Shown in pieces: positions 19,813-23,812 of a stretch of 64,000 bases of DNA. The notes under the pieces are model-generated. The model searched no databases. It was not told where the DNA came from and saw nothing but the letters and a program-made list of their open reading frames with translations. The DNA is taken from the NCBI GenBank assembly GCA_014879735.1, contig JACSRN010000084.1, forward strand, positions 1 through 64,000, written 5' to 3'. Origin of the DNA: Paracoccaceae bacterium. Its GTDB lineage: Bacteria; Pseudomonadota; Alphaproteobacteria; Rhodobacterales; Rhodobacteraceae. A program made the position numbers and the translations under genes. Each line of letters opens with the position of its first letter. The first letter of the stretch is position 1.

Positions 19813-21248
<1,436 letters not shown>

Positions 21249-21268
21249 GTAAGCGTCTGGCCTGACCG

Positions 21269-22846
21269 CTATCGGTTCCAGCACCACGGCAGGAGGTCGT
21301 CGACCTTGTTGATCTTGTAGTCGGGGATGCGGGCGAGGGTATCGGCGAGCCAGGCGTTAGGATCGACGGCGTTGAGTTTGGCTGTTTCGATCAGGGTGTA
21401 GGCGATGGCTGCGGCCTTGCCGCCTGCTTGGGAACCGACGAACAGGTAGTTCTTTCTTCCCAGGGCGATGGCGCGCATGCCGCACTCGGCGGCGTTGTTG
21501 TCGAGTTCGAGGATGCCGTGATCGAGATAGGGCCGCAGGCGATCCATGCGGGTCAGTGCGTATCGGATTGCCGAGGCCAGTGGGGATTTGCCAGAGATCG
21601 TGGTGAGTTGCATGGCCAGCCATCGCTCCAGATCGTCGAAGACTGGGGCGGCATGGGCGCGTCGCTGTTCGGCGCGGCGATCTGGAGGCGACCCTCGGGC
21701 CTGTTTTTCGACAGCATATAGCAGGGCGATCCGGCCGATGGCTTCTTCGGCGATCGGGGAGCCCTGCGACCGGTGAATGTCGACGAACTTGCGCCGGACA
21801 TGGGCCATGCAGGCGACTTCTCGGATGGCGCCGGAGCGATAGAGGTCCTCGAACCCGGCATAGCCATCGGCATGCATCCAGCCGCGGTAGCGGGCGAGAT
21901 GGTCCTTGGGGTGCTGGCCTTTGCGGTCACCGGAGAACCTATACCAGGCAGCGGGCGGGGCATCGCCGCCCCAAGGGCGTTCGTCGCGGGCGTATGTCCA
22001 GAGCCTCGCGGTCTGGGTCTTGCCGGTGCCGGGGGCCAGCATGCTGATGGGCGTGTCATCGGCAAAAATCGCCTCAGCCGACAGGACATGTCGTCCGATT
22101 GCATCTGCCAAGGGCTCCAGCAAGGTAGTGGATCTGCCAACCCAATCTGCGAGCGTCGAACGGTCCAGATCGAGCCCTTCGCGGTCGAAGATCTGGCTTT
22201 GCCTATAAAGTGGCAGATGATCGGCATACTTGCTGACCAGCACGTGGGCCAGCAGACCCGGTCCCGGACGGCCACGTTCGATGGGCCGCGACGGTAGCGG
22301 CGACTGAACAAACTTCTCGCAGCAGGCACAGGTCAGACGCGGGCGGACGATGCGGTTCACGATGAAGCGGCCAGGGACGTATTCCAGTTCTTCCGTCACA
22401 TCCTCGCCGATCCGGCGCAGGCGCCCGCCGCAATCGGCACAGGCATCTGCGCCCGACGTCAGTTCGACCTCCATCCGGGGAATGTGGTCCGGGATCGGGC
22501 GGCGCTTTGGCTTGTCCTTCTCCTCGATGTCCGGCAGCTTCATCCGCGCGGTCATCGCGGCGGCGGCAATCTCGCTTGTTTCCAACGCCAGTTGCAGTTG
22601 CTCGGCGGTCTCGGACGAAGCGCCAAACCGATGCGCCCGATGCCCGGCCAACTGGTGCCTGCCCTGCGCTTGCGCTTCGGGCGTTCCTCACTTCAATCCG
22701 TCCACCGGACGGATTGATCCTGCCATGCAGGACCGCTCTTCACTCTCGATCAGGATCGCCTGCGCCTTGACCTCGGCCAAGAGCCGCGCGGTGAAGCTGC
22801 GCAGCTCCTCGGGATCTTCCGGAAAGGTCAGGGTCTTATCCAACAT
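21269..22846 (-). pseudogene. tnpC: IS66 transposase TnpC, interrupted by a short hairpin insertion
   Basis: The original start at 22846 gives MLDKTLTFPEDPEELRSF, then reads ILIES and enters foreign sequence ending in a TGA. The normal transposase resumes at about 22651 with LAGHRAHRFGASSE and runs to the end. It includes the zinc-finger-like CADCGG/CACC, a DDE core (YADHLPLYRQSQIF, FADDTPISML, WMHADGYAGF) and the C-terminal NNAAECGMRAIALGRKNYLF. The in-frame distance exceeds the family norm by about 26 codons, so about 78 bp were inserted. A TTG at 22651 could restart translation but would omit the N-terminus. Confidence 0.82.
22661..22742. repeat. About 78-bp insertion with two adjacent perfect hairpins (REP-like) in tnpC
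   Basis: CAATCCGTCC / GGACGGATTG (22694-22716, 3-nt loop) is followed directly by TCCTGC / GCAGGA (22718-22732, 3-nt loop). Paired short-loop hairpins resemble REP/BIME or MITE-like palindromic elements. Exact ends are uncertain by a few bases because the boundary is inferred from the usual TnpC N-terminus. Confidence 0.65.
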
Positions 22847-22904
22847 GTGAGAAGTTTATCTCACTGTATTCGTTGTGGGAATCATTGATTACAGGATCGG
22901 CAGA

Positions 22905-23252
22905 TTATCCTGCGGCCCAGGGCCGCCACGTCCGCTGTGGCACCCGCCAGTCGAGACCTTCGAGCAGCATCGACAACTGGGCAGGAGTCAATGCCACCTT
23001 GCCCGCCTTCGCCGAGGGCCAGACAAACCGCCCCTTCTCCAGCCGCTTCATGAACATGCACGCCCCCTGACCATCCCACCAGATCACCTTGACCAGATCG
23101 CCACGACGGCCCCGGAAGACAAAGAGATGCCCACCGAACGGGTCCTGCTGCAGCACTGCCTCGGCCTGCGCCGCCAGCGCCGCAAACCCTTTGCGCATGT
23201 CCGTCACCCCGGCCGCCAGCCAGACCCGCGTGTTGGCCGGAACCGGGATCAA
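22905..23252 (-). CDS. tnpB: IS66 accessory protein TnpB
   Basis: The 115-residue protein is a standard IS66 Orf2/Tnp[20 protein letters not shown], then [43 protein letters not shown]. Its start overlaps the tnpA stop by 4 bp. It is needed with TnpA for IS66 transposition; its biochemical role is poorly known. It appears intact. Confidence 0.92.
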
Positions 23253-23605
23253 ACCGACAACCCCCGGATCAGACGCGCCAAGGCCTCAGGATCATACCCA
23301 CCACTGATCCGCATCCGATGCCCACCCGCCAGTTCGATCTCGATGCAACTGTCGGGGACAGGCGCTGTAGCAGGCGCCCTTGCCTCCGCGACGATCTCCA
23401 CCGGCAGAAAGCACAAACCAGCTTCCTCTGCTCCCGTTCCGGGCTTCGGCCTATACTTGGGATCGCGCAGCCATTTGAAGATCAGGTTGGCGTTCACCGT
23501 ATAACGAAGCGCCACCTGAGCCACGGAAACGCCAGGCGCAGTCGTCTGCAGACAGATCGACCGCTTCTCCTCATCCGTCCAAAGCCGTCTCGTCCGCCGC
23601 GCCAC
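23249..23605 (-). CDS. tnpA: IS66 accessory protein TnpA (helix-turn-helix)
   Basis: The 118-residue protein begins [49 protein letters not shown], a Tnp8-type helix-turn-helix. It ends [23 protein letters not shown]. It is the first gene of the element, and its upstream region contains the right terminal repeat ending at 23689. It appears intact. Confidence 0.9.
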
Positions 23606-23812
23606 GCCAGCACCTTAGTGTCCACTATCGTTGGTGGACACTAACCGGCACCATCACGCTCCGGCAGAGCGGTCAGACCGGACAGTTACACATCAGTCTT
23701 CATGGAGTCACCCGCTGTGTCAGAACGCTGCCGGGCACTGATGCATCGAAAGCGCCCGCAGGCCGGTCGCCTATCCTCAAGACAGCAGCTTCGTCATCCG
23801 ACGATTGCGGTG

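Follow-up and report, generated by a model that had tools for sequence, protein, structure and literature searches.

The question raised by this locus is what kind of segment interrupts the transposase gene tnpC of an IS66-family insertion sequence in the window, that is, the whole 64,000-nt stretch of Paracoccaceae bacterium DNA that was analysed. We consider the segment to be a copy of a structured mobile element, small and non-autonomous, that occurs in alphaproteobacteria and is normally found, in one orientation, at gene 3' ends, and we give this reading a probability of roughly 0.7. The features of the locus are collected in Table 1.

Table 1. Features of the interrupted IS66-family insertion sequence and of its insert (positions in the window)
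Feature	Position	Strand	Remark
IS66-family insertion sequence, host of the insert	21249..23689	-	22-nt imperfect terminal inverted repeats
Terminal inverted repeats of the IS66 element, 22 nt, imperfect	21249-21270 / 23668-23689		
tnpA-like ORF	23605-23249	-	Pfam
tnpB	23252-22905	-	Pfam
tnpC, interrupted	21269..22846	-	52-codon 5' ORF 22846-22688, then 3' frame
Inserted element, 84 bp	22660..22743	-	by comparison with uninterrupted relatives; ends uncertain by 1-2 bp
TGA at the family's usual host-stop position	22740..22742	-	here out of the tnpC frame
P1 5' strand, closing helix of three-way junction	22735..22738	-	
P2 hairpin, 6-bp stem, 3-nt loop	22718..22732	-	
P3 hairpin, 10-bp stem, 3-nt loop	22694..22716	-	
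P1 3' strand	22688..22691	-	contains in-frame TGA (22690-22688) truncating tnpC
H1 hairpin, imperfect; family's most conserved sequence	22661..22682	-	

The frame downstream of the insert is that of tnpC, and the remaining protein, with Pfam matches to DDE_Tnp_IS66, zf-IS66 and LZ_Tnp_IS66, continues there. The original prediction had described a segment of about 78 bp that breaks tnpC at codon 35, adds a stop and otherwise keeps the frame. The codon, the stop (the first in-frame one, lying within the insert) and the frame were all recovered in our comparison. As for the length, 78 bp is the net gain, because 84 bp stand where uninterrupted relatives have about 6 bp; the inserted stretch itself is thus 84 bp. 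Compared with these relatives, no target duplication was found at the insert and no direct repeat lies on its flanks. The three closest of 100 tnpC relatives (L047, L048 and L049; 94, 94 and 92% identical) are uninterrupted, as had been expected of a segment that is not native to tnpC in other IS66 members, and of the two genomes whose uninterrupted tnpC is most similar, G022 holds nine family matches and G038 none. At the ends of the insertion sequence as a whole, no 8-bp direct repeat common to the two flanks was found, and therefore rearrangement or deletion beside it is likely. Beyond its left end, positions 20607-21265 carry pieces of SAF and altronate/galactarate dehydratase (GD_AH_second) domains in two frames, cut by that end.

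That the palindrome arose by chance, or that the segment belongs natively to tnpC, is an explanation of negligible probability. It would agree with the lack of a second close copy of the insert in its own genome, but the uninterrupted relatives argue against it, as do a covariance model match of 92.1 bits at 22657-22747 (the window copy being one of the 11 members used for training) and independent blastn matches in other genera, the best with an E-value of 1e-11. Within the window the 23-bp palindrome is found a single time, against 0.01 matches expected by chance at up to three mismatches, and the own genome holds two palindromes with three mismatches (contigs C59 and C161). The insert also folds better than its shuffled versions, both as DNA (z -2.8; 2 of 200 shuffles as good) and as RNA (z -3.4; 0 of 200).

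If the segment belongs to a mobile family, further copies are to be looked for, and related ones were found in many other genomes; in the own genome this expectation held for one diverged relative only, a short member without P2 (G000:C41:25-98, L158; 33 bits). Beyond the window copy, the own genus gave weak matches only, the best of 35.6 bits, in 7 of 13 genomes including the own. Therefore, the tnpC copy may have come with the insertion sequence from another host. The blastn matches in other genera of the window's bacterial family are partial relatives, and several of the last (e.g. L024-L033), which are short and in some cases lie within genes, were excluded as members. Relatives are also carried by Rhizobium and Methylocystis plasmids (18 blastn records), while phages gave no match. 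The covariance model, built from 11 aligned members with P3 and H1 as its only structure, matched 122 of 248 genomes at E<=0.01, these genomes being one per genus of the window's family with the own genome included; by the rough E-values of the model itself, about 2.5 of the 248 would be expected to match, and copy numbers are lower bounds, since no more than 16 candidates per genome were scored. In the class as a whole, 13 of 289 genomes matched at E<=0.001. Rhizobium johnstonii 3841 and R. leguminosarum Norway showed 18 and 12 matches, about ten of them strong in each. The exact H1 core is present in 87 genome contig stretches; among the 80 listed, 76 are alphaproteobacterial by title and the other four are titled only "bacterium" or "Proteobacteria bacterium". 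Their taxa include Rhizobium, Thioclava, Paracoccus, Parvibaculum and Caulobacteraceae. H1 alone also forms tandem arrays in G058 and G036 (L035 1500-1619 and L020 1400-1530; periods of 40 and 43 nt). In Pararhizobium polonicum, two copies of equal score (91.0 bits) lie 441 bp apart (L196 6765-6856 and 7206-7297).

The sense strand of the element, about 90 nt long, consists of a helix P1 that encloses the hairpins P2 and P3 in a three-way junction, followed by H1. The 10-bp and 6-bp stems with 3-nt loops noticed at the outset are both present, and correspond to P3 and P2. We rejected the reading of a two-hairpin element, since the third hairpin and the closing helix are also conserved in the family. 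Pairs of P1, P3 and H1 were counted in two alignments, A2 (98 distinct rows) and A3 (109 distinct rows), from matches in 80 loci and in 100 of the 101 loci L152-L252 (L251 left out). In A2, 93.2% of cells pair, 381 cells carry changes on both sides (shuffles, 89), and the score for covariation is 0.507 (shuffles, 0.120); the corresponding values for A3 are 92.1%, 358 against 100, and 0.401 against 0.100. None of 500 shuffles reached any of these pairing or covariation values, and when the partners were slid by one to three columns the covariation score fell to 0.019-0.092. P1 lies outside the structure of the model, and all four of its pairs show changes on both sides in A2 and in A3. Only 76 and 68% of P1 cells are paired in the two alignments, many of the misses being tandem G.A (47 and 71 cells). 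In an independent parse of 75 distinct elements, with 23 that did not fit the expression dropped, P1 had 2.88 pairs against 1.99 (sd 0.09). P2 was omitted from the pair counts because its length varies; in 118 distinct regions its stems average 5.9 bp against 3.7 (sd 0.09) in shuffles. A shorter variant lacks P2, and 83 of 216 aligned matches have no region of its size. The inner part of H1 is invariant in A3.

Single sequences follow this structure to varying degrees. Among six members folded singly, the three-way junction appeared in three, and the window copy did not form it. In the window copy, P1 amounts to two pairs plus tandem G.A and is absent from the predicted fold. Two orthologous Rhizobium copies (L320 and L330) have wholly different yet complementary P1 and P2 strands, perhaps by replacement from another copy. 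P3 has 31 G.T pairs but 12 A.C pairs, an excess in favour of the sense strand as RNA, while the two kinds are equal in P1 (24 to 22), so that the form under selection may be RNA or single-stranded DNA. These counts bear on another reading, in which the family is a conserved cis-acting RNA of 3' untranslated regions, mainly inherited with its genes, and the tnpC copy is owed to a rare event of illegitimate recombination and not to a moving element. On the one hand, the strong covariation and the G.T excess of P3, as expected for sense RNA, speak for it. On the other hand, the equal counts in P1, the tandem and partial copies, and the copy that sits inside an insertion sequence speak against it. 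We consider this reading unlikely.

The placement of the copies connects the element with gene ends and stop codons. Stops were counted in 178 of 200 distinct matches (length at least 64, 300 nt upstream), weak matches included. A stop codon lies at element positions 3-9 in 148 of the 178 copies, and 88 of these 148 end an open frame of at least 100 codons, compared with 1755 of 15202 other stops in the same loci (11.5%). One fixed element position holds the stop of the upstream frame in 85 of 178 copies, as TGA in 82 of the 85; in 90 of 178 no long frame ends at the fixed stop. The codon that precedes the fixed stop is mostly one for Gly (59 of the 85), followed by Glu (17) and Gln (6), against a background of 103 Gly and 40 Glu in 909; the final residue is thus also set by the element or by its target. 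Orientation was counted in the 159 of 178 matches with 600 nt on both sides: 100 of the 159 start within -60 to +8 nt of the end of a same-strand frame of at least 150 codons (random positions, 7.5%), and convergent frame ends lie near the 3' side of the element in 20 of 159 (against 8.1%), placement counts that are not independent because orthologous genes recur across genera. An intrinsic terminator was considered and rejected, as the last hairpin is followed by no T-run: six or more T stand in the next 12 nt in 2 of 178 copies, with a mean of 2.0.

The genes upstream of the element are varied, with 83 distinct upstream proteins falling into 60 Pfam families. Nevertheless, carB, asd, purU, dnaJ, lepA and guaA recur upstream in several genera, and an aminotransferase and an L,D-transpeptidase recur in Rhizobium. 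This recurrence is as much a sign of old, inherited copies as of mobility. The strict orientation, the fixed stop position and the sharing of housekeeping genes among genera are what a 3' UTR RNA inherited with its genes would lead one to expect, and the unrelated upstream genes are not, nor is patchy presence within one genus.

Such patchiness is seen at two orthologous sites, where filled and empty loci show gain or loss of the element. At the end of a gltB-type gene (glutamate synthase large subunit by NCBIfam), followed by what we take from its N-terminus to be gltD, 3 of 30 orthologous loci of one genus are filled, 26 are without the element and one was left unread; 11 of the 30 loci plus the query were aligned, and then all 30 were read. 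The three filled sites end in TGA, whereas the 15 empty sites with a directly readable stop have TAA or TAG. The element with a short tail occupies about 100 nt, against about 8 nt at empty sites, and no target duplication was seen. The purU site, in another genus, is occupied in 5 of 25 loci, and two or three more may hold remnants of H1 (L291, L306, perhaps L307). The other 18 loci, L307 included, have GGC (17) or GGT (1) as the last codon, and four of the five filled sites have GGG. Fifteen of these 18 unfilled loci already end in TGA, so the stop is not necessarily brought by the element. Two Rhizobium plasmid sites also differ in the presence of the element, with more change around them, and at one of these (site A) the neighbouring DNA differs as well. 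These differing sites, the gene-end copies in many alphaproteobacteria and the closest IS66 relatives without the insert support the mobile palindromic family that had been proposed.

In the reading that we prefer, the structured mobile element would move as a unit, by some enzyme, and would normally settle at gene 3' ends, always in one direction. Its 5' end, (G)TGAG, would often supply or overlap the host stop codon, and the 3' untranslated RNA, or an intercistronic spacer, would thereby begin with the structure. We propose that insertion is tolerated because the element starts at or after the stop. The three-hairpin structure probably gives the mRNA a stable 3' end, and it may protect or tune the mRNA. 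The tnpC copy looks like a stray in coding sequence: it would have entered the tnpC coding region in the family's usual orientation, truncating the gene, with the effective stop lying in the P1 3' strand. We raise a further idea tentatively, as one that has a chance but is more probably wrong: a selfish, transposase-less, RNA-structured element may spread by inserting at gene ends together with a stop codon of its own, each insertion leaving an element-encoded last codon, TGA and a structured 3' UTR. Such an element would possibly be copied via RNA or by replication-fork mispriming, and not by a transposase. If the preferred reading is right, an apparently undescribed structured element lies at core gene ends in half of the sampled genera of a major family, and it often holds the stop codons of carB, asd, dnaJ, purU, lepA, guaA and a gltB gene. 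The small mobile repeats would gain a class linked to stop codons, the covariance model of the element could be used for annotation, and a direct test of hairpin effects on mRNA 3' ends would be opened.

Several known repeats resemble the element. RIME1 and RIME2 (Rhizobium-specific intergenic mosaic elements), reportedly described by Osteras et al. in 1995, are said to be large palindromes of about 100 bp between Rhizobiaceae genes, with elements of 108 and 109 bp. RIMEs are expected on pSymB of S. meliloti, where no full-length match to our family was found and one match of 28 positions scored 23 bits. The size, the large palindromes and the intergenic position of RIMEs are like those of our family. 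The present family differs in its three hairpins with a closing helix, its occurrence in several orders and its link to stop codons; it is set apart by description, not by sequence. The repeat literature drawn on comprises PMC2267715, PMC1273637, PMC2573895, PMC3733652, PMC12306157, PMC2873474 and PMC2817692. In PMC3733652 and PMC2267715, Rickettsia palindromic elements (RPEs) are alphaproteobacterial palindromic elements of about 100 bp within coding sequences, as is the copy in tnpC. Unlike our family, which normally stands after genes, RPEs are kept in frame in many proteins; in tnpC the length change keeps the frame, and the internal TGA ends the protein. Bru-RS1 and Bru-RS2 of Brucella, of about 105 bp, are likewise alphaproteobacterial palindromic repeats in PMC2267715, a likeness by description and not by sequence.

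The original prediction had likened the segment to a REP/BIME or MITE-like unit, and neither name is supported. A REP/BIME element mobilised by a RAYT (an IS200/IS605-type Y1 transposase) shares with our family, as do REPINs, short palindromic hairpins, intergenic position, many copies, and tandem or composite copies; in addition, the absence of a target duplication is what Y1 chemistry leads one to expect, according to PMC2817692. Against this stand the search for the Y1 transposase PF01797, which found none in 15 element-rich genomes nor in the own genome, yet found it in 2 of 18 genomes with few or no elements found (named control genomes, 5 of 14 positive), and the absence of a terminal GTAG/CGTC tag from the window element and the 11-member alignment. 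The three-way unit of about 90 nt is also too long, and its orientation at gene 3' ends too strict. Accordingly, we consider mobilisation by a RAYT very improbable. The 5' end of the family is GTGA(G/A), and this head is not wholly unlike REP, because some Pseudomonas REPs begin GTGG or contain GTGAG in a table of PMC2817692. A classical MITE derived from a DDE insertion sequence is equally hard to credit: the element is small, non-autonomous and inserted without a gene of its own, but the family alignment has no terminal inverted repeats, and at tnpC and gltB no target duplication was seen and target bases were replaced.

Membership of the tnpC segment in the family rests on the match to the P3 and H1 model in the same orientation, as a training member, together with the blastn relatives in other genera. 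Twelve loci with members or partial members gave no Rfam family match for the element at E-values up to 1; one Rfam match at chance level (mir-665, 26 bits against a cut-off of 52) lies away from it. No description of the family was found in the literature searched, where subscription journals or figures could hide one, and four H1-core stretches entered as text gave no match in literature text, figures being outside that search. Two further repeated stretches adjoin copies of the element. One, in genus g47, is a distinct repeat of about 65 bp and high copy number (L102, about 1369-1434; G058:C7); with a query spanning it, G058, G619 and G628 yielded 33, 32 and 27 matches, the majority of the listed ones at that stretch. 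Three Rhizobium copies (L317, L327 and L328) have in common about 70 nt downstream of the element, 85-89% alike; this stretch may be another repeat, or it may extend the element.
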